Below are positions 26,616-51,174 of a stretch of DNA of 64,000 nucleotides, in pieces. Location: contig NZ_JACZDF010000005.1 of NCBI RefSeq assembly GCF_014852685.1, positions 1-64,000 on the forward strand, given 5' to 3'. Within the stretch, counting starts at the first letter, position 1, and the number at the start of each line of letters is the position of its first letter. Origin of the DNA: Flavimobilis rhizosphaerae. GTDB lineage: Bacteria; Actinomycetota; Actinomycetes; Actinomycetales; Cellulomonadaceae. A program made the position numbers and the translations under genes. The notes beneath the pieces are model-generated. The model did not search any database. It was given only the letters and a program-made list of their open reading frames with translations, and was not told the DNA's origin.

Positions 26616-26645
26616 GGGCCGCACTCCTGGAAGGGGGTGCGGCCC
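26616..26645 (+). terminator. suf operon terminator
   Basis: 9-bp stem GGGCCGCAC/GTGCGGCCC (26616-26624 with 26637-26645), 23 nt after the sufT stop. Confidence 0.7.
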
Positions 26646-26884
26646 GCAGTTGGCTCGTGCTGGTGGGCGTCATCGTCGGAGCGCTCGGCGTGGTCCGGAT
26701 GCGAGAGCACGGCCACAATGGTCGGCGCGGAGCGTAGCCGTCGCAATACGCTTACCCCTCCCTATAGTGAATCAACTGTCCTGAACCGGCTTGCATCAGG
26801 TTCCCGGGTGATGCGGCAGTATTAACGAAGTACCCAAAGTCAAGTACGGGTGGCGCTTTGTCGCCTGACCGATGTGGAGACGCC
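26646..26884. other. Gap at the left edge of the atypical island
   Basis: No gene seen. From about 26740 the base composition becomes visibly richer in A/T. It contains TATAGT at 26763-26768 and an inverted repeat GCATCA-N10-TGATGC (26793-26814) in the presumed leader. I could not find direct repeats, a tRNA fragment or an integrase that would define an insertion end. Confidence 0.5.
26763..26768 (+). promoter_or_regulatory. -10 element for the DUF262 gene
   Basis: TATAGT, one mismatch from TATAAT, 116 nt upstream of the GTG at 26885. A weak -35-like TCGCAA lies upstream. Confidence 0.45.
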
Positions 26885-28726
26885 GTGGGATTTCAGACCC
26901 CGCTCTATGAGTTAAGTGACTACCTGAAGTGGACGACGAGCGGGAAGATCCAGCTTCCTGACTTCCAGCGTGGGTACAAGTGGGAGGACGAGCGGATTAG
27001 GCAGCTGCTGGTGACGATCCTGCGTGGTCACCCGCTCGGTGTTGTGATGCTGCTCAAGACGGGTAACGACCAGATTCGGTTTAAGCCGCGACCTATCGAG
27101 GGGGTGGGCGCGCTTACGAGCGTTGGGCCAGAGACGCTGCTCCTCGACGGTCAGCAGCGCCTTACGTCGCTTACGCAGGCCCTGACCGGGAGCGGCGTTG
27201 TTCATACGATGGATAGTCGCGGCAAACTCATGGACCGCCAGTACTTCATCGACATGGAAGTGGCGGTTCAGGGCGAGGACCGTATGGACGAGGCAGTCTT
27301 GTCTCTCCCCGGCGACGGTATCGAACGTGAGAACTTCGGCCGGGACATCGTCCGGGACGTGTCCACGCCGGACAAGGAACGGGCAGAGGGTCTGTTCCCG
27401 GTCCGGTTGCTGTTCGGCGATGCGATGTCGTGGCTCTTCGACCTTGACGATCGAGACCTCGCAAAGGACTTCAACAACAAGGTCGTGAAGCCGGTTGGAA
27501 CGTACAACATCCCGGCGATCGAGCTCGACAAGGACACCAGCAAAGCTGCCGTGGCGACTGTCTTCGAGAAGGTCAATGTCGGCGGGCTCCCGCTCAATGT
27601 CTTCGAACTGCTAACGGCCACCTTCGCGGGGGACGCGGCGTACTTCCACAGGCACGGAACCGATTTCCGGCTCAACGACGACTGGAAGGAAACGCAGTCA
27701 AGGTTCTCGCGCTACTCCGTTCTTGCGGGCCTAGAGAGCACCGACTTCCTCCAGGCAGTGACCTTGTTGACGACGCGGAAGCGAAACCTCCAGGACACGA
27801 GTAGCCGTCCGCCAGCAGTCTCAGCTAAGCGTGAGGATGTTCTGAAGCTCACCCTCGAGGACTACCTGGAGTGGGTGGAGCCGCTTCGCGAGGCCTTCGT
27901 ATGGGTGTCAACTTTCCTTGCGGACCGGCACATCTTCGATGTTCGCTTCCTGCCGTACCCGAAACAGCTCGTACCGCTCGCGGCCATCCGGGTCGTCATG
28001 GGAAGTGAAGCAGACCTGATTGGAACCCGCGAGAAGCTTGTTCGTTGGTTCTGGTGCGGCATTCTGGGCGAGCTGTACGGCGGGGCTATTGAGACGCGAT
28101 TCGTGCGAGACCTTGAACAGGTCCCCGGCTGGGCGCGCGGTGACGCCGATGCAGTGACACCGAACACTGTGAATGACGCAACGTTCGTGGAGTCCCGACT
28201 CCATTCGCTGCGCACCCGGGGCGCGGCAGCGTACAAGGGTATTTACGCGCTCCTCCTTGGAAACGAAGCGCGAGACTGGATGGAGGACAAGGCTCTCGAC
28301 CTGGTGCAGTACGTGGACCTTGCAGTCGATATCCATCACATCTTCCCGAAGAAGTGGTGTGAAGAGCACAAGATCGACGACGAGCGCCGCGAGAGCATCG
28401 TCAACAAGACGGCCATATCTGCCGTGACGAATCGGACGATTGGTGGGGCTGCGCCGTCGGACTACTTGGCCGTCATCGAGAAGAAGGCTCAGATTCAGTC
28501 GGAGAAACTGGATGGCCTTGTCGAGGCACACCTTGTCCCGGCCGGTCTGCTGCGGGCAAACGACTTCGATTCCTACTTCGTTGAGCGGCGTGAGCGGTTG
28601 TGCCAGCTCGTCGAAAAGGCCATGGGTAAGGTTGTGCCGCGTGACCTCGACCGGGGCGAGTCGGAGGAGGATTCGACTCAGTTCCAGCTGGAAGAGATCG
28701 AGGAACTCCCCGACGAGGCCGCGTGA
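26885..28726 (+). CDS. DUF262/DUF1524 (GmrSD-like) nuclease, probable defence protein
   Basis: 613 aa from GTG 26885, 5 nt after GGAG; a TTG at 26858 is in frame but lacks such a site. The DUF262 ParB-like domain shows LPDFQRGYKWEDERI and LLDGQQRLTSLTQAL (the DGQQR motif) in the first 110 residues. The C-terminal DUF1524 HNH-like domain shows DIHHIFPKKW and IVNKTAISAVTNRTIGG. The fusion matches single-chain GmrSD proteins, which restrict modified phage DNA; SspE is a phosphorothioation-sensing relative, but no ssp genes are here. Codon use is clearly less GC-biased than the flanks, a sign of transfer. No helicase, modification enzyme or integrase accompanies it. Confidence 0.85.
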   Translation: MGFQTPLYELSDYLKWTTSGKIQLPDFQRGYKWEDERIRQLLVTILRGHPLGVVMLLKTGNDQIRFKPRPIEGVGALTSVGPETLLLDGQQRLTSLTQALTGSGVVHTMDSRGKLMDRQYFIDMEVAVQGEDRMDEAVLSLPGDGIERENFGRDIVRDVSTPDKERAEGLFPVRLLFGDAMSWLFDLDDRDLAKDFNNKVVKPVGTYNIPAIELDKDTSKAAVATVFEKVNVGGLPLNVFELLTATFAGDAAYFHRHGTDFRLNDDWKETQSRFSRYSVLAGLESTDFLQAVTLLTTRKRNLQDTSSRPPAVSAKREDVLKLTLEDYLEWVEPLREAFVWVSTFLADRHIFDVRFLPYPKQLVPLAAIRVVMGSEADLIGTREKLVRWFWCGILGELYGGAIETRFVRDLEQVPGWARGDADAVTPNTVNDATFVESRLHSLRTRGAAAYKGIYALLLGNEARDWMEDKALDLVQYVDLAVDIHHIFPKKWCEEHKIDDERRESIVNKTAISAVTNRTIGGAAPSDYLAVIEKKAQIQSEKLDGLVEAHLVPAGLLRANDFDSYFVERRERLCQLVEKAMGKVVPRDLDRGESEEDSTQFQLEEIEELPDEAA

Positions 28727-28760
28727 GCACTTCAGTGCGCCGCGGCTGAGTGGTGAGCCT

Positions 28761-29279
28761 CTATGCGTTGTGTGAACGTAGTTCAGACTGCGAGTCGCTC
28801 TGGACGTCGTTGACCGCAGCGTTGAGGGTGTCGTCCGCCAGACAATCCGGCTCGGGGGTTGCTTGTTGAGTTGACTTCGTCAGTGCGTCGATATCCTCAA
28901 GCAGCGCATCCTGGGCGGAGAAGTCGATACCCAAGGTGTCGCCCAGTTCTTTCTGAGGATCTGTGGCTAGGTCGGCCTTGGGTGCAGCTTTGAGTTTCTT
29001 GGCTTGGCGCCTTGCTCGGAGATGGTTCCAGAGTTTGACCCCACCGGCGGCTGCTGTAACAACTAGCGCGAGTCCGGATATAACGGGCAACAATGAGGTG
29101 TCCTCAGGCTCGTCGCTGGAGTCATTAGTGTCGTCTTCGGGATCCTCCGTGGATCCGCAGAAGGGCGCATGCCCGGCGAGATTGCCGTCACTGTCGAAGA
29201 GCAAGTTGCTTTCGCCGCCTTTGCCTGGTCTCAGAGAGTCGTCGTACTCCCTGTACCCGTATTCGCGCTTCATTGCCAT
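28761..29279 (-). CDS. Unknown single-pass membrane protein
   Basis: 172 aa, not recognised. Residues 1-45 are charged and Gly/Asp-rich with a single Cys (HAPFCGS), 46-60 are acidic (STEDPEDDTNDSSDEPEDTS), then one membrane helix at about 63-82 (LPVISGLALVVTAAAGGVKLW), a basic stretch HLRARRQAKKLK that should be cytoplasmic, and a soluble acidic tail. The sequence resembles neither a signal peptide nor a secretion substrate. ATG 29279 lies 6 nt after a TAACAT box, so it may be leaderless; Met3 is an alternative. It converges on the DUF262 gene and shares its atypical composition. Confidence 0.65.
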   Translation of the reverse strand: MAMKREYGYREYDDSLRPGKGGESNLLFDSDGNLAGHAPFCGSTEDPEDDTNDSSDEPEDTSLLPVISGLALVVTAAAGGVKLWNHLRARRQAKKLKAAPKADLATDPQKELGDTLGIDFSAQDALLEDIDALTKSTQQATPEPDCLADDTLNAAVNDVQSDSQSELRSHNA

Positions 29280-29285
29280 GTGACT

Positions 29286-29291
29286 ATGTTA
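29286..29291 (-). promoter_or_regulatory. -10 element of the 172-aa membrane protein gene, leaderless type
   Basis: TAACAT on the minus strand, 6 nt before the ATG. Its last bases coincide with the stop codon of the helicase gene (29289-29291). Confidence 0.45.
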
Positions 29292-31613
29292 CTCAGGTGC
29301 ACGATAGCGCAGGGGTAATTGCGGCGATTCTGGCTGGTCCGGAGATAAGGTCGGGGGAGAGGGCTCATTGAGTTCGTCCCACCACGGTCCGTAGCCAAGC
29401 CGGGCCTGCTCCGCGGCGACGACCTCGCGGGCGAGGTCGCCGCGTGCGACGTCGATCGATCCGACGGCGGCTTGAGCGAGGGAGGACACACGCACGTAGT
29501 CGTCGAACACCTCACGCTTACGGCCAAGTATCTCGACGATGCGCTCGTCGACGCCGTCGCTTCCGAGCAGCCGGTGCGCGCGCACCGGACGCACCTGACC
29601 CATGCGGTGCGCGCGGGCGATCGCCTGGTCCTCAAGCGTCGGCGTGAGCTGCGGTTCACACAGGACGACGACGCTTGCCGCCTGCAGGTTGAGCCCGGTG
29701 CCGCCCACGGAGATCTGCGCGACGAGCACCGCGGTGTCGTCGGACGTGAAGGCGTCAACAAGTTCCCCGCGCCGGGCGACGGGCACGTCGCCCGTGAGTG
29801 GGCCGTGGACCGCTACCCCGCGAGCCGCGAGCGTGGCGGACACAAGATCGAGCGTCGTGCGGAAGTAGGAGAAGACGAGGACGGAGTGCCCCTCGTCCAG
29901 CGCCTCGTCGACGAGGTCAAGGAGGCGGTCGAGCTTTGCCGGCGACTCGCCCGCCGTCGGGTGCCACGCGGCCTGACGCATCGCCATGAGATTGCCTGCC
30001 TCGACTGCCGCGCGGTACGCGCGCTCCTCGGGTTCCCTCAGCTCAACCCAGTCGTCAGACGCGACAATGCCGGGCAGTTCAACGAGGACGTCGGACTGAT
30101 TGCGGCGCAGGTACACGTGCGCGACCGCATGTCGGAAGGCCTCGGGCCCGACGAGCCCAAGATGCTTGGGGATCGTCGCCGCGAGCCCCGGCTGCAGCAA
30201 CTCCGTGAGCGCGAGGAAGTCCTCAAGCCGGTTGTCCATCGGCGTGCCGGACATGAGCAGCACGCGCGCGCACCGCTGTGCCCACGCCGCGACAAGCTTG
30301 GACCGGGCGGCACGAGGGTTCTTCACCTGCTGTGCCTCGTCGACGACGAGCAGTCCCACGCGCCCAAGGTCGGGGGAGAGCCCCGGATCGTCGTCGGACG
30401 TACCGGGGAGCGGGACGTGAGCGAGGCCTTCAAACGTCGTGAGGCCAATGCCGCCCTCGCGCTCCCATACCGCAAGCGCGTCCGCGCGCCCCGAGCCGTG
30501 AGCGCGGTGCACAGCGAGCGAGGTCCGCAGTTGTATCTCGTGCTCCCAGTTCGCGAGGAGCGACGCCGGGCACACGACGAGGAAGCGCCGGTGGCCGTCG
30601 GCCGCGAGGTGCGCGATCGCGGCGAGCGCCTGCATCGTCTTGCCGAGACCCATCTCGTCGCCGAGCAGCACACGGCCCTGCTCGAGCGCGAAGCGCGCAC
30701 CGAACTCCTGGTAGCCGCGCAGCGCGACGCGCAGCAGCGACGTGTCGAGCGGGTGGGCGTCGACGCGTGCCACGAGGTCGGCAGGCAGGAGGCCGCGTGC
30801 CGCGAGGACGCCCGCGGCGTGCGGGACGATCTCCTGGAGCGTCGTGAAGTACTCCGCGGAGCGGCGTGCGAAGTCCTCGGCGAGCGCGATGCCCGCGGGG
30901 TCGGTGGCGGCGATTTCGGCCTCGGCGCGGGCGACGATCCCCGGCAGGTCGTTGATGGCGATGCGCTCGTCCCACTCCTGCAGGCGCGCGAGGGCGGCGT
31001 GCGCGGCCCTGCGGGTGCGCGGCAGCGTGAGGAGCATGCGGGCGGCGTGGCGTGCGGGAGCGGCGTCGTGCGTCGCCTGCCCGCCGAAGCGGACGTAGTC
31101 GTCGAGCTCTCGTCGGTGCGGTGCGACGAGCGGGGTCACCCGCTGGAACCGCCGCAGGAGCGCGAGGAGGTCGCGGGCCTCGCGCGGCTCCGGCAGGCCG
31201 GCGCGGTCGAGCGTGATGCGCAGGGGCCGCAGCGTCACGGCGGCCTTGGCGAGCTGGTCGACGGCCGCGACGACGCCACGCGCGGTCGCATCGCCGACGC
31301 CCGGGATCGCGTCGAACGTCTCCGGCCTCACCCCGAGGAAGTCCGCGGCGGTCGCGTAGCCGGCGTTCTCGACGGCCGTGAGCCGCAGGTTGCGTTCGGT
31401 CGTCTCGCCGAGCCGCCCGACGGGTACCCGGCTCAGCTCGTCGCGGACCCGTCGGGCCTCGTCGTCGCGCACCCACGCGGCGACCGCGACGGCGACGTCG
31501 TCGAGGTGGGTGACGACGGCGCGCGCCCGATCGACGAGCGCGACGTGACGGTCGACGAGCGCACGGGCGTCGGCGCCGGCCCGGACGGGTCCGGGCGGGG
31601 AGGGTGGGAGCAC
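29289..31613 (-). CDS. SNF2-family DEAD/DEAH helicase-like ATPase
   Basis: 774 aa from GTG 31613, just after the metallopeptidase stop. A helix-hairpin-helix-like segment (FDAIPGVGDATARGVVAAV) lies near residue 100. The ATPase core has Walker A LLGDEMGLGKTMQAL, DEAQ box VVDEAQQVKNPRAARS, SGTPMDNRLEDF, and motif VI IARAHRMGQVRPVRAHRL. Such proteins remodel or translocate on DNA; the cellular role is unknown. The last residues (after GPWWDELNE) are unusually Pro/Gln-rich and encoded in the island's composition, so the tail may have been altered when the island arrived. Confidence 0.85.
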   Translation of the reverse strand: MLPPSPPGPVRAGADARALVDRHVALVDRARAVVTHLDDVAVAVAAWVRDDEARRVRDELSRVPVGRLGETTERNLRLTAVENAGYATAADFLGVRPETFDAIPGVGDATARGVVAAVDQLAKAAVTLRPLRITLDRAGLPEPREARDLLALLRRFQRVTPLVAPHRRELDDYVRFGGQATHDAAPARHAARMLLTLPRTRRAAHAALARLQEWDERIAINDLPGIVARAEAEIAATDPAGIALAEDFARRSAEYFTTLQEIVPHAAGVLAARGLLPADLVARVDAHPLDTSLLRVALRGYQEFGARFALEQGRVLLGDEMGLGKTMQALAAIAHLAADGHRRFLVVCPASLLANWEHEIQLRTSLAVHRAHGSGRADALAVWEREGGIGLTTFEGLAHVPLPGTSDDDPGLSPDLGRVGLLVVDEAQQVKNPRAARSKLVAAWAQRCARVLLMSGTPMDNRLEDFLALTELLQPGLAATIPKHLGLVGPEAFRHAVAHVYLRRNQSDVLVELPGIVASDDWVELREPEERAYRAAVEAGNLMAMRQAAWHPTAGESPAKLDRLLDLVDEALDEGHSVLVFSYFRTTLDLVSATLAARGVAVHGPLTGDVPVARRGELVDAFTSDDTAVLVAQISVGGTGLNLQAASVVVLCEPQLTPTLEDQAIARAHRMGQVRPVRAHRLLGSDGVDERIVEILGRKREVFDDYVRVSSLAQAAVGSIDVARGDLAREVVAAEQARLGYGPWWDELNEPSPPTLSPDQPESPQLPLRYRAPE

Positions 31614-31618
31614 CTCGG

Positions 31619-32509
31619 TCAGAGCTTGTTGCCGCTCACCGCGAACGTGTCGCACGCGCCGGCGCCCTGCTCGAGGCCGGTCGTGAACCAGCGCTGGCGC
31701 TGCTCGGAGGAACCGTGCGTCCACGACTCGGGTCGGACGGAGCCAGACTGGCCCTGGATCGCGTCGTCGCCGATCGCGGAGGCGGTGTCGAGGGCGTCGG
31801 CGATCTCCGCCTTCGTCGGCGGCTTGAGGAACGTCGTGCCCGCGTCGTCCTTTGTCGTGGCGGCCGCGCCGACCCACGCTCCCGCGTAGCAGTCGGCCTG
31901 GAGCTCGATGCGCACGGAGTCGCTCGTCGGGCCCGAGCCGCCACGCTCCGCGGCAGCCATCGCGCCCGTGAGCGTCGAGATGTGGTGGCCCCACTCGTGC
32001 GCGACGACGTACATCTGCGCGAGGCTTCCGCCGTCGGCGCCGAGCTGCGAGCGCAGCGTCTTGTAGAACGACGTGTCGAGGTAGATGTCCTCGTCACCGG
32101 GGCAGTAGAACGGGCCGACGGCCGACGATGCGCTGCCGCACGCCGTGGAGACCGAGCCTTCGAAGAGGTTGACGTGCGGCGTCCGGTACTCCCCGGACGC
32201 GATACGCGGGTACTCCGCTGCCCAGTAGGCGTCGAGCGAGTTCGCGGCGCCGACGACGCGGCACTCGTCGTCCTGGTTCGCCGCGGCACCGGTCGAGCAG
32301 CGTGAGAGGTCGCCGTTCGTGCTGCCGTCGACCGCGATGTTCGACGTGCCTCCGCCGACGAGGCCGGAGAGGTCGAGGCCGAACTGCTGGGCGACGACGA
32401 CGAGCAGGATGACGGCGATGCTGCCGCCGCCGCCGATGGCCATGCCCTTGCCGCCCGAGCGCTTGCTCACCTTGCTCGTGTCGAAGCGGGCGTCGTCGTT
32501 GAACGTCAT
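31619..32509 (-). CDS. Neutral zinc metallopeptidase, YpfJ family
   Basis: 296 aa. The N terminus (MTFNDDARFDTSKV, then SGGKGMAIGGGGSIAVIL and a membrane helix) and the zinc motif VVAHEWGHHISTL (HEWGH) identify the YpfJ/metallopeptidase family, with a second conserved segment ELQADCYAGAW carrying the third ligand region. It is membrane-anchored with the catalytic domain outside. ATG 32509 follows TACCGT by 6 nt. Substrate unknown. Five bases separate it from the helicase gene, so they are probably co-transcribed. Confidence 0.9.
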   Translation of the reverse strand: MTFNDDARFDTSKVSKRSGGKGMAIGGGGSIAVILLVVVAQQFGLDLSGLVGGGTSNIAVDGSTNGDLSRCSTGAAANQDDECRVVGAANSLDAYWAAEYPRIASGEYRTPHVNLFEGSVSTACGSASSAVGPFYCPGDEDIYLDTSFYKTLRSQLGADGGSLAQMYVVAHEWGHHISTLTGAMAAAERGGSGPTSDSVRIELQADCYAGAWVGAAATTKDDAGTTFLKPPTKAEIADALDTASAIGDDAIQGQSGSVRPESWTHGSSEQRQRWFTTGLEQGAGACDTFAVSGNKL

Positions 32510-46309: not shown

Positions 46310-46756
46310 ATGGACTGGTACTGGTGGGTCGCGATCATGCTCGCGCTCGTCGCGATCGAGGCGATGACCCTCGATCTCGTGCTGTTCATGTTCGCCGGTG
46401 GTGCCCTCGGTGCCGCGGTCGTCGCGGCGGCGGACGGTGACCTCGTCTGGCAGGTCGTCGTGTTCGCCATCGTCTCGACGATCCTCCTCGCAGCCCTGCG
46501 ACCCTTCATGCTCAAGTCGCTGCGGAAGCGTGGGGAGAACCTTCCCGAGACGAACGCCGCGGCCCTCGTGGGGCGCGATGCGATCGTCGTCGACGACGTC
46601 TCCGAGCACGCCGGCCTCGTCAAGCTCGCGGGTGAGGTCTGGTCCGCCCGCACCGAGGGCGACGCCGTCATCGCAGCGGGCACCGAGGTGCGCGTCGTGC
46701 GCATCGCGGGCGCGATCGCGATCGTCACTTACAGCGACCATCCCGCGTCGGCCTGA
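46310..46756 (+). CDS. NfeD-family membrane protein
   Basis: 148 aa. Two to three helices in the first 65 residues (WWVAIMLALVAIEAMTLD, GGALGAAVVAAA, VVVFAIVSTILLAALRPF) and a C-terminal OB-fold domain (about 85-142). NfeD proteins pair with SPFH/stomatin proteins, as here with the next gene, in membrane-domain organisation. Good Shine-Dalgarno sequence GGAGGGGG. Confidence 0.9.
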   Translation: MDWYWWVAIMLALVAIEAMTLDLVLFMFAGGALGAAVVAAADGDLVWQVVVFAIVSTILLAALRPFMLKSLRKRGENLPETNAAALVGRDAIVVDDVSEHAGLVKLAGEVWSARTEGDAVIAAGTEVRVVRIAGAIAIVTYSDHPASA

Positions 46757-46839
46757 CGCACATCCGACACGGGGCGTGACGTCGCGCACCCGGCCGCACC
46801 GCACGCCTGCACCGCCACCACGAACCAGGGAGCCGCTCC

Positions 46840-48087
46840 ATGCCTGAGGATGTCACCCTCAACTTCGGGATCGTCCTCGCGATCGTCCTCGCGATCGTCG
46901 TCCTCATCGTCATCGGCAAGTCCGTCCGCATCGTCCCGCAGGCTCAGACCTGGCTTGTCGAGCGGCTCGGCCGCTACTCGCACTCGTTCGAGGCCGGACT
47001 CCACCTGCTCATCCCGTTCGTCGACCGGGTCCGCGCCCAGGTCGACCTCCGCGAGCAGGTCGTCTCGTTCCCGCCGCAGCCCGTCATCACGTCGGACAAC
47101 CTCGTCGTGAGCATCGACACCGTCATCTACTTCCAGGTGACGGACCCCAAGTCGGCCGTCTACGAGATCGCCAACTACATCGTCGGTATCGAGCAGCTCA
47201 CCGTGACGACGCTCCGCAACGTCATCGGCTCGATGGACCTCGAGCAGACGCTCACGAGCCGTGACCAGATCAACGGCCAGCTCCGTGGCGTCCTCGACGA
47301 GGCGACCGGCCGCTGGGGCATCCGCGTCAACCGCGTCGAGCTCAAAGCGATCGACCCGCCCGCGTCCGTCCAGGGCTCGATGGAGCAGCAGATGCGCGCC
47401 GAGCGTGACCGTCGTGCCGCGATCCTCACGGCCGAGGGCGTCAAGCAGTCGCAGATCCTCACGGCCGAGGGCGAGAAGCAGGCGTCGATCCTCCGCGCCG
47501 AGGGTGCCGCCCAGTCGCGCATCCTCGAGGCCGAGGGTGAGGCGCGCGCGATCCTCCAGGTCTTCGACGCCATCCACGCTGGCGACGCCGACCCCAAGCT
47601 CCTCGCGTACCAGTACCTGCAGAAGCTCCCCGAGATCGCCAACGGCACCTCCTCGAAGCTCTGGCTCGTCCCGACGGAGTTCACGGCGGCGCTCGGCGCC
47701 ATCACCGCCGGTCTCGGCGGCACGGCACCGGCCGCGCCGGTGTCCGCGGCCGACGACCCGGAATCGGCCGCAGCACGGCGCCGTGAGCGGCTCTCGTTCG
47801 AGTCGTCCGGGCTGCGCGACCCTGCCGAGGCACTCGCCGAGGCACGTCGCGAGGCCGAGGCCGCGACGGCCGACGCGACGACCGCAGGTCAGCGTTCGGG
47901 GCGCCCGTTCAACCCGGATGCCGCGCGGGGTCAGCAGCCCGGGTTCCCCGCGGCGCAGCCCCCGGCACACGCTGCCTCGGCCGCACCGCCCTACCAGTCG
48001 CAGGCTCCGGCACCGACGTACCAGCCGCAACCCCCCGCGCAGGACGACGAGCAGCCGCCGGCACCTCCCGCGCCGCCGGCACCCTGA
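46840..48087 (+). CDS. SPFH/stomatin-like protein (paraslipin)
   Basis: 415 aa. One N-terminal helix (FGIVLAIVLAIVVLIVIG), the SPFH domain VRIVPQAQTWLVERLGRYSHSF to about residue 190, then an alanine/glutamate coiled coil with repeated TAEGEKQ-like units, and a Pro/Gln/Ala-rich disordered tail from about 320. It forms oligomers at the membrane with the NfeD partner encoded upstream. The long Pro-rich tail is unusual compared with the roughly 300-aa core. Confidence 0.92.
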   Translation: MPEDVTLNFGIVLAIVLAIVVLIVIGKSVRIVPQAQTWLVERLGRYSHSFEAGLHLLIPFVDRVRAQVDLREQVVSFPPQPVITSDNLVVSIDTVIYFQVTDPKSAVYEIANYIVGIEQLTVTTLRNVIGSMDLEQTLTSRDQINGQLRGVLDEATGRWGIRVNRVELKAIDPPASVQGSMEQQMRAERDRRAAILTAEGVKQSQILTAEGEKQASILRAEGAAQSRILEAEGEARAILQVFDAIHAGDADPKLLAYQYLQKLPEIANGTSSKLWLVPTEFTAALGAITAGLGGTAPAAPVSAADDPESAAARRRERLSFESSGLRDPAEALAEARREAEAATADATTAGQRSGRPFNPDAARGQQPGFPAAQPPAHAASAAPPYQSQAPAPTYQPQPPAQDDEQPPAPPAPPAP

Positions 48088-48140
48088 CGCACGACACGGT
48101 ACGACCGCACGACACCATCGCACGGCACGACCGCGCACTG

Positions 48141-48173
48141 ACGGCGCGCCCCGGGACCTCCGGGGCGCGCCGT
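48141..48173 (+). terminator. Terminator after the SPFH gene
   Basis: 14-bp perfect stem (48141-48154 with 48160-48173) and a 5-nt loop. Confidence 0.8.
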
Positions 48174-48258
48174 CGTCGTCCAACGTCGTCCTGCTCCACC
48201 GGGCATGCCGAGACGTGTCCCCGCATGGGAACGCTCCGAACCCTGCGATGATCCTCCC

Positions 48259-49485
48259 GTGACCACGCCCTTCACCCCGACCCTCCGCCGTGATGGCTTC
48301 ACGCTCACGCACTACTTCGTCCTCGTCGTGTGGGGGTGGTTTCTCTACTCCTTCAGTCCGTCGGTCCCGCTGCTCGCGGAGGACCTCGGCGTCTCCAAGG
48401 CCGTCGGCGGGCTCCATGGCACCGCGATGGCAGCAGGCGCGATCACTGCGGCGCTCGTCCTGCCGCACCTGATCCGCTTCCTGGGGCGGCAGCGGCTGCT
48501 CGTCGCGAGCCTCGTGACGGTCGCGATCGGCGTCACCTGCTTCGTCCTCGCCCCCAGCATCGCCCTCACGCTGCCCTCGATCGCCGTCGTCGCGCTCGGT
48601 GGCAACATCGCGCTCTCGATCGCGCAGCTCAACCTCTCGCAGCGCCACGGTCTCGCGGCACCGGCCGCGATCTCCGAGGCCAACGGGGCGGGCTCGGGCA
48701 TCGGCCTCCTCGGACCGCTCGCGGTGGGTCTCGCAGTCGGGATCGGCTGGGGCTGGCGGGCCGCGGTCGTCGTCGCCGTCGTCCTCGCGCTCACCGTTGC
48801 GTTCGCTGTGTCGCGTCTGCCGCGCGACGTCCCCGGTCCAGGCACGCAGGCCCGCGACGTCGCGGATCCGGTGCCCGAAGGTCCTCTGGTCACCAGCTCC
48901 GTGAGCGTGGCGTCGCGACGGCTCGCCCCTGGGACGTCCGGGCTCCTCGTCGCGCTCGTCGCAGCGATGACTCTTGAGAACGCGACGACGTACTGGTCGA
49001 CGTCGCTCGTCCTCGAGCGCACGGGCGCTGACGCGAGCATCGCGACCGCGACGACTGCCGGCCTGCTCGGCGGTATGACGGTCGTCCGGTTCCTCGGGAC
49101 GACCCTCACCCGGCGGTTCGGGGCCGACCGGGTGCTCGCCGCGAGCTTCGTCCTCGCGATCGCGGGCTGGGCGGTCCTCTGGACCGCACACACGCCGGGC
49201 GTCGCCGTCGCCGGGCTCGTCGTCGCGGGTCTCGGGTACGGCGCGCAGTACCCCCTGACGATCGCGCTGCTCCTCGGCATCGCACGCGAGGGCGCCGACC
49301 GGGCGCAGGCCGTCGCGACGTTCGTCGCAGGTGCCACCGTCGGCATCGCCCCGTTCCTCCTCGGAGCGGCGGCCGACGCGGTCGGCACGCACACGGCGTT
49401 CGTCGCCATCCCCGTCATGGCGGTGCTCGGAGCCGTCGGCGTGCTCCTCGGCGTGCGCAACGCGCGGGCGCACGGGCTGCTCTGA
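48259..49485 (+). CDS. MFS transporter
   Basis: 408 aa, about 12 hydrophobic segments (for example TAMAAGAITAALVLPHLIRFLG and GLVVAGLGYGAQYPLTIALLLG). It belongs to the major facilitator superfamily; the substrate is unknown. I use GTG 48259 (VTTPFTPTLRRDGF), 6 nt after a GATGAT box, rather than the upstream ATG 48205, which lies just after the previous terminator and encodes a non-typical start. Confidence 0.85.
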   Translation: MTTPFTPTLRRDGFTLTHYFVLVVWGWFLYSFSPSVPLLAEDLGVSKAVGGLHGTAMAAGAITAALVLPHLIRFLGRQRLLVASLVTVAIGVTCFVLAPSIALTLPSIAVVALGGNIALSIAQLNLSQRHGLAAPAAISEANGAGSGIGLLGPLAVGLAVGIGWGWRAAVVVAVVLALTVAFAVSRLPRDVPGPGTQARDVADPVPEGPLVTSSVSVASRRLAPGTSGLLVALVAAMTLENATTYWSTSLVLERTGADASIATATTAGLLGGMTVVRFLGTTLTRRFGADRVLAASFVLAIAGWAVLWTAHTPGVAVAGLVVAGLGYGAQYPLTIALLLGIAREGADRAQAVATFVAGATVGIAPFLLGAAADAVGTHTAFVAIPVMAVLGAVGVLLGVRNARAHGLL

Positions 49486-49539
49486 GCCCCGCGTCAGCCG
49501 CCCCGCGCCGAGCCTGGCTGGCATGCGTGACAATGGACC

Positions 49540-50427
49540 GTGCCCACGAATCCTGCTGACACCGTGCTGCCCGCCGACCTCGACCTCGTCGAGATCACCG
49601 ACGTCACCGCGCCCGGCCTCGAGGACTACGTCGCGCTCACCGACGTGAGGCTGCGATCGCGCACGGAGCCCGGCAAGGGGCTCTACATCGCGGAGTCCTC
49701 GACCGTCATCCGGCGGGCGCTCGCCGCGGGCCATCGGCCGCGCTCGTTCTTCATGGAGCACAAGTGGTTGACGTCCATGGCGGACGTGCTCGCCGAGCAC
49801 CCGGGGGTGCCCGTCTACACGGGCACGGCCGAGGTCCTCGAACAGGTCACCGGGTTCCACCTCCACCGCGGGGCGCTCGCCTCGATGCACCGGCCCGCGC
49901 TCGCGCCCGTCGCCGAGCTGCTCGCGGCGGCGCGTGGCGGGCAGGGCGCTCGCCGTGTCGTCGTCCTCGAGGACACGGTCGATCACACGAACGTCGGCGC
50001 CGCGATGCGCGCGTGCGCGGCGATGGGCGTCGACGCGGTGCTCTTCACGCCCTCGTGCGCCGACCCGCTCTACCGGCGGGCCGTGCGCGTCTCGATGGGC
50101 ACCGTCTTCCAGGTGCCGTGGACCCGCTTCGAGCACTGGCCTGCGGGCCCCGCGGACGGTGCGGCCGACGGGGTCGACCTGCTGCGGTCGCTCGGCTTCA
50201 CGGTCGCGGCGCTCGCGCTCGAGGACGACTCGGTGAGCCTCGACGTCCTCGAGCACGACACCCCTGAGAAGCTGGCGCTCGTCTTCGGCACGGAGGGCGA
50301 CGGCCTCAAGAAGCGCACGATCACGGCGTGCGACCTCACCGTGAAGATCCCCATGGCGGGCGGCGTGGACTCGCTCAACGTCGCGTCGGCCGTCGCGGTC
50401 GCGGGCTGGGCGACCCGGGTGCGGTGA
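49540..50427 (+). CDS. TrmH/SpoU-family RNA methyltransferase
   Basis: 295 aa. An N-terminal substrate-binding region (to about 125) and the SPOUT knot: VVVLEDTVDHTNVGAAMRACAAMG, LYRRAVRVSMGTVFQVPW, LVFGTEGDGL and IPMAGGVDSLNVASAVAVAGW. Motif NVGAAMR has Ala for the usual Asn-Arg pattern but keeps Arg. Likely methylates ribose in rRNA or tRNA; the target is unknown. GTG start with no clear ribosome site. Confidence 0.9.
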   Translation: MPTNPADTVLPADLDLVEITDVTAPGLEDYVALTDVRLRSRTEPGKGLYIAESSTVIRRALAAGHRPRSFFMEHKWLTSMADVLAEHPGVPVYTGTAEVLEQVTGFHLHRGALASMHRPALAPVAELLAAARGGQGARRVVVLEDTVDHTNVGAAMRACAAMGVDAVLFTPSCADPLYRRAVRVSMGTVFQVPWTRFEHWPAGPADGAADGVDLLRSLGFTVAALALEDDSVSLDVLEHDTPEKLALVFGTEGDGLKKRTITACDLTVKIPMAGGVDSLNVASAVAVAGWATRVR

Positions 50428-50471
50428 CGCACGGCCGCATCGATCGCTCGTGGCGAAACTGTCCGGCGAGA

Positions 50472-50498
50472 CTGGCACTCGGGGGGTGAGAGTGCTAA
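50472..50498 (+). promoter_or_regulatory. CIRCE element (HrcA operator)
   Basis: CTGGCACTC-N9-GAGTGCTAA: seven of nine left-arm bases and all right-arm bases fit the CIRCE consensus TTAGCACTC-N9-GAGTGCTAA. Upstream of hsp20, followed by an A/T-rich TAAAAATAG that may hold the -10. Confidence 0.9.
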
Positions 50499-50540
50499 AA
50501 ATAGAGGCGTAGCCACGGCGCCGGACTCCGGCGTCCCCGA

Positions 50541-50559
50541 CCCCCGGAAGGTCCGGGGG
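50541..50559 (+). promoter_or_regulatory. Hairpin in the hsp20 leader
   Basis: 8-bp stem CCCCCGGA/TCCGGGGG with an AGG loop, 9 nt before the Shine-Dalgarno sequence. Possible mRNA stability or temperature-responsive element. Confidence 0.4.
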
Positions 50560-50581
50560 ATCTTCTGCGGAGGTGAACGAG

Positions 50582-51010
50582 ATGGCTGCTCAGCGAGACC
50601 CTTTCCGTGAGATGGACCGACTCTTCGGCGCGATGCTCGGCGGCCCGCGCGACAACGCCGGCATGCCGATGGACCTGTTCCGCACCGACGACCACTACGT
50701 CCTCAACATCGACCTGCCGGGCGTCGACCCCGGCACGATCGACGTCTCCGTCGAGGACCGCACCCTCACCATCCGGGCGGAGCGCAGCGCGCGGACCGAG
50801 GTGAGCCAGTGGCTCCTCCGTGAGCGCCCGGCGGGCACGTTCGCCCGACAGCTCACGGTCGGTCGCGGCCTCGCCCTCGACAAGATCGACGCCAGCTACC
50901 GCGACGGCGTCCTCGCGCTCACCATCCCCGTCGCCGAGGAGGCTCGCCCGCGTCGCATCGAGGTCGTCCACGACTCCGGTGCTCCCGCGCTCGAGGCCGC
51001 GACGAGCTGA
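50582..51010 (+). CDS. hsp20: Small heat-shock protein Hsp20
   Basis: 142 aa. Alpha-crystallin domain from about residue 38 (DHYVLNIDLPGVDPGTIDVSVEDRTLTIRAE) to the A-x-x-x-GVL motif in YRDGVLALTIPVAEEARPRRI. It is an ATP-independent holdase. ATG 50582 is 8 nt after CGGAGG; the GTG at 50573 overlaps that site. The CIRCE element upstream indicates control by HrcA. Confidence 0.94.
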   Translation: MAAQRDPFREMDRLFGAMLGGPRDNAGMPMDLFRTDDHYVLNIDLPGVDPGTIDVSVEDRTLTIRAERSARTEVSQWLLRERPAGTFARQLTVGRGLALDKIDASYRDGVLALTIPVAEEARPRRIEVVHDSGAPALEAATS

Positions 51011-51033
51011 CCCCTGCAACGTCCCGCGCACGA

Positions 51034-51066
51034 ACGACGGGCCACCGCACGCCGGTGGCCCGTCGT
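51034..51066 (+). terminator. hsp20 terminator
   Basis: 14-bp perfect stem (51034-51047 with 51053-51066), 5-nt loop, 23 nt after the stop. Confidence 0.8.
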
Positions 51067-51174
51067 CGTGCGTCCGGCCCCGCACCACTCGACGGAAGCA
51101 CTGACGGCGGCACTCGACGACCGTGATCGACCGTCCACGCTCGGGTCGCGCGACGCGCGCTCCGCTGCCACCCT

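Follow-up and report, generated by a model that had tools for sequence, protein, structure and literature searches.

Restriction of modified phages is known for several members of the GmrSD family of type IV restriction enzymes, namely GmrSD, BrxU and TgvAB (PMC10952713, PMC11411939). The DGQQR motif and the remainder of the GmrSD motif set have been defined (PMC4619093), and the motif features that we report below have also been described for TgvAB (PMC11411939). BrxU (PDB 7p9k, 7p9m), which is found with a BREX system, is a single chain of 587 aa in which a DUF262 domain, with DGQQR, is followed by an HNH domain. GmrSD and Eco94GmrSD have this same two-domain order and the same motifs, and are specific for glucosyl-5hmC. 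GmrSD-like genes embedded in Hma clusters are on record (PMC11411939), and the auxiliary effectors named for BREX and BREX-related systems include GmrSD-type nucleases (PMC12839542). Given these records, the pattern of Hma association that we describe for orthologues is known in kind.

Here we describe a nuclease of 613 aa from Flavimobilis rhizosphaerae, encoded within a stretch of 64,000 nucleotides (hereafter the window), that shares with BrxU its single chain, its domain order and DGQQR. Our data provide good support for a role in defence, and add the nuclease to the GmrSD family as a new member that was acquired and stands alone. The best explanation of the segment that encodes it, and one that we consider likely, is that it represents horizontally acquired defence cargo, whose main gene encodes a GmrSD-family (type IV) restriction enzyme that is autonomous and consists of one polypeptide, with the membrane protein as a separate passenger. 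The features of the locus are as follows.

26616 to 26645, plus strand: terminator hairpin of the suf operon, the left edge of the segment (from the sequence; a similar hairpin lies here in congeners)
26646 to 29368, no strand: acquired segment of low GC; DNA homology to the nearest congener ends at 26645 and restarts at 29369
26885 to 28726, plus strand: single-chain GmrSD-family restriction enzyme (DUF262 + HNH), 613 aa, GTG start (from PF03235, the alignment and an AlphaFold2 model)
27146 to 27160, plus strand: DGQQR motif, residues 88-92, predicted NTP-binding site
28328 to 28432, plus strand: predicted His-Me finger (HNH) active-site region with D482, H484/H485, N507 and N516 (from invariance in 30 orthologues and the model)
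28761 to 29279, minus strand: one-pass membrane protein, 172 aa, of an uncharacterised actinobacterial family, judged to be separate cargo
29289 to 31994, minus strand: SNF2-type helicase gene flanking the segment, its last ~27 codons inside the atypical DNA

We placed the start of the nuclease gene at GTG 26885 rather than at TTG 26858, because all orthologues begin with MGF. The Pfam profile PF03235 (DUF262, GmrSD_N) matches the protein with 96 bits (E 3.4e-27) against a cut-off of 33.2 bits, and is present in 30/30 orthologues. In an alignment of these orthologues (58-83% identity, gap-free in the motifs), we found that the QR, DGQQR and FxxxN motifs (Q28-R29, D88GQQR92, and F227 with N231) are invariant, as are the HNH residues listed above. 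The original prediction, a fused DUF262/DUF1524 nuclease, is thus borne out for the DUF262 domain. The DUF1524 profile (PF07510) has no match in the window nuclease and only sub-threshold matches in 17 of the 30 orthologues, the best with an E of 0.012, but the HNH residues are invariant. The motif context of the nuclease, DxHHxFP..W, differs from the (E/D)HxxPQ of GmrD.

An AlphaFold2 model of the nuclease (pLDDT 84) shows a strand-helix pattern at the predicted HNH region. When we compared this model with the PDB by Foldseek, BrxU was the best match (E 1e-12, probability 1.00), aligned over the whole chain with a TM score of 0.40-0.42; similarly, a profile of the nuclease family detects BrxU at E 8e-4. 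The low global TM score indicates that the placement of the domains differs or is uncertain, so that the claim of likeness rests on domain order and motifs. In addition, with ~15% identity in the structural alignment and a TM score of 0.40, the substrate of BrxU cannot be transferred to the nuclease.

The only other credible PDB matches were chains of SspE, which likewise combines DUF262 with an HNH fold, and BrxU was far ahead of them. SspE's place as second-best match would accord with a nuclease that senses phosphorothioate DNA, as SspE does. However, a search of the genome with a DndC-type (phosphorothioation) query gave no match, so no phosphorothioate partner gene of this type accompanies the nuclease, and the match to BrxU is far better; we therefore regard phosphorothioate sensing as extremely unlikely. 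Assignment to a named PADLOC system was rejected, as the PDC-M55C, HEC-05, HEC-06 and SspE models match only parts of the protein, with low scores.

By analogy with these relatives, the nuclease probably has NTPase and nuclease activities, depends on modification of its substrate, and protects against phage; the proposal that it acts on modified DNA, which the original prediction also made, is probably correct on the grounds of family and fold. The N-terminal DUF262 domain would bind and hydrolyse NTP through DGQQR and would detect chemical modification of phage DNA entering the cell. Once this is sensed, the His-Me finger domain at the C-terminus (D482/H484-H485/N507/N516) would be licensed to cut or nick the DNA. 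Because the proposed target is modified DNA, no methylase would be needed, and the module, which holds two genes only, contains no cognate methylase. C5-cytosine methylases are encoded elsewhere in the genome; if they are active, indiscriminate cutting of 5mC DNA by the nuclease would be self-harmful.

The genome contains five DUF262 genes altogether. Two of them, encoding 592 and 758 aa, are adjacent to each other on a separate contig of 6.8 kb (C3; L133:1728-5779), beside a transposase-like (integrase-core) gene, and this pair resembles the two-protein DUF262 systems. Another lies in an apparent defence island on contig C15 (L134:4811-12435), with a DUF1998/DrmB-like gene (recognised by eye) and a C5-cytosine methylase.

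The segment that carries the nuclease gene extends over 2.72 kb, from the suf terminator to the SNF2 gene, and its two complete genes, seen in both the open reading frame list and the sequence, are those of the nuclease and the membrane protein. Its GC content is 0.599, ~6 standard deviations under the rest of the window (559 equal-sized intervals from the remainder of the 64 kb: mean 0.730, sd 0.021, minimum 0.686). GC3 is 0.76 in the nuclease gene and 0.65 in the membrane-protein gene, the lowest among the 38 called genes of the window, compared with 0.84-0.97 in correctly framed neighbours. These values agree with the shift in composition and codon use toward A/T that had been predicted for a small acquired island with two complete genes. 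A second stretch of lower GC3 (0.735-0.746) lies at 46732-51088 and consists of two minus-strand genes. The predicted coordinates were correct, whereas the right edge lies ~80 bp further on, at ~29368, inside the tail of the SNF2 gene rather than at its end. The edges show neither a target-site duplication nor terminal repeats, only short, chance-like repeats, and we detected no integrase at the segment. Scans of the segment yielded no promoter-like site and one terminator-like site, fewer than expected by chance, and a search of it against Rfam gave no match.

To place the segment among relatives, we compared the sufT-SNF2 interval across the genus. Neither of its genes is matched in any of the five other genomes of the genus; the two genes are thus not fixed in close relatives, nor does their composition match its surroundings. 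The SNF2-type gene occupies the same place in 4/6 genomes; the other two (G002 and G004) showed no SNF2 homologue in the stretch from sufT to the metallopeptidase gene. Two congeners (G003 and G005) have empty sites, with the same kind of terminator followed by the SNF2 end ~70-180 bp later. The nearest congener (G001), 93% identical over the suf side, holds a different insert of ~1.2 kb that encodes an XRE-type HTH protein and a DUF6036 nucleotidyltransferase. Together, the empty junctions in two congeners and the different insert in the nearest one demonstrate that the segment is an acquired insertion, and that the sufT-SNF2 interval is a recurrent site of insertion or replacement. The segment was likely exchanged through homologous recombination of its flanks. 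The SNF2 neighbour itself was rejected as a partner of the nuclease, since it lies at the same place in congeners that lack the segment.

The XRE/DUF6036 pair of G001 (L048:3072-4249) is a toxin-antitoxin-like module. Its presence in the very interval that holds the nuclease in our genome raises the question of whether the latter is a nuclease of an abortive or toxin-like kind, or serves a function other than phage defence. We judge this very unlikely: the orthologues have no conserved small partner adjoining the gene, and the family link to type IV restriction is strong.

Other defence systems commonly use a membrane protein as effector. The original prediction had offered, besides a stand-alone defence, a two-gene system in which the membrane protein would be the effector, and the presence of both genes in a single low-GC acquired segment fits that idea, as does the general frequency of membrane effectors elsewhere. 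The protein has one hydrophobic stretch (about residues 61-84), no match in Pfam, PADLOC or PHROGs, and no meaningful match in NCBIfam. Weak to moderate homologues occur in other genomes of the class, and family members lie at the following places.

L054:8937-9443
L056:7676-8632
L145:7645-8388
L148:7723-8550
L149:7923-8255
L150:8304-8807

The family shares an N-terminal motif of the kind YE(Y/W).DDLTPG...GG..(Q)NL(Y/F), followed in most members by one hydrophobic segment. Among the neighbours of the homologues are a Hachiman-like helicase, a type IIG-like R-M pair, a Schlafen-type helicase and, within a type I R-M island, an AAA_21/DUF4276 pair, as well as ordinary genes. Several members of the family are thus located in defence-type islands. 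We found no homologues on plasmids or phages.

The evidence argues strongly against a partnership with the nuclease. The two genes lie on opposite strands and face each other, and the membrane protein has homologues at places that lack the nuclease. Conversely, none was found beside nuclease orthologues, either at 36 orthologue loci or at the loci of an order-wide sample. The end of the SNF2 gene is ~10 bp from the start of the membrane-protein gene on the same strand, so that transcription of the latter may follow that of SNF2. For lack of co-occurrence at the orthologue loci examined, we rejected the membrane protein as a partner, and hold a two-gene system to be scarcely credible. The stand-alone defence of the original prediction is supported, and, as predicted, the module includes neither a modification gene nor a helicase gene.

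We next consider the distribution of the nuclease. Scanning a single genome for each species, we obtained 36 orthologue loci, nearly all in Actinomycetota, across which the orthologues (58-83% identity) are scattered; in an evenly drawn, order-wide sample, the nuclease was present in 15/396 genomes and 12/109 genera. In our tree, the window nuclease falls in a well-supported clade of nine, and its closest relatives (80-83% identity) are from Nocardia, Gordonia and Rhodococcus. This clade departs from host taxonomy, as the sole copy from the same family is only 52% identical. Full-length relatives are also found on two Rhodococcus plasmids (70% identity), which indicates that plasmid carriage of the nuclease is possible, and in one unannotated phage record (49%). 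Our data show that the N-terminal domain belongs to the GmrSD family, that the predicted catalytic residues are conserved and the fold resembles BrxU, and that the gene was acquired, is absent from congeners and has a scattered distribution.

For about half of the orthologues, the neighbours that we examined include no recognised R-M partner. Others lie beside DrmD with DrmMI (L059), a DrmD-like helicase (L062, L085) or a type IIG enzyme (L076). TgvAB belongs to the same family as our nuclease, some orthologues of which adjoin type I HsdR (L063, L080, L087), but TgvAB requires two DUF262 proteins, whereas the window system has one. At 11 of the 36 loci we found the full order HmaA-HmaB-gene-HmaC (identities checked in representatives with PADLOC models: E=0, 0 and 1e-264, respectively), and at 2 further loci the gene follows HmaA only. 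The 11 embedded orthologues lie between hmaB and hmaC, and thus within Hma clusters, as do the GmrSD-like HEC-05 and HEC-06, whose models match our nuclease only partly and weakly; the window copy, in contrast, lies outside any Hma cluster.

With a third of the sampled orthologues inside Hma cassettes, there is room for dependence on such systems. The nuclease could be an orphaned or portable effector of Hma, a DUF499-centred, BREX-related system, its targeting requiring HmaA/B/C or a similar host complex, and the auxiliary role of GmrSD-type nucleases in BREX and BREX-related systems (PMC12839542) would agree with this. However, the clade of nine includes no Hma-embedded member, HmaB was not found in the window's genome, and hmaA, hmaB and hmaC are not adjacent to the nuclease gene. 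Moreover, Hma context changed at least twice on well-supported branches, indicating that the gene has repeatedly entered or left Hma clusters, which a self-sufficient module would be expected to do. We therefore consider dependence on Hma unlikely, and rejected an Hma remnant, as the genome lacks HmaB.

A more specific and rather doubtful possibility is that the actinobacterial subfamily reads a mark different from the cytosine modifications known for GmrSD and BrxU, such as one used by actinophages, is self-contained, and settles repeatedly between hmaB and hmaC against phages that escape the host's methylation-based system.

Our results place a stand-alone GmrSD-family enzyme in an exactly delimited acquired segment, with empty-site controls. 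Its close orthologues alternate between a stand-alone state and association with Hma, type I, type IIG and DISARM genes. As orthologues exist in both contexts, the autonomy of embedded GmrSD nucleases becomes directly testable.
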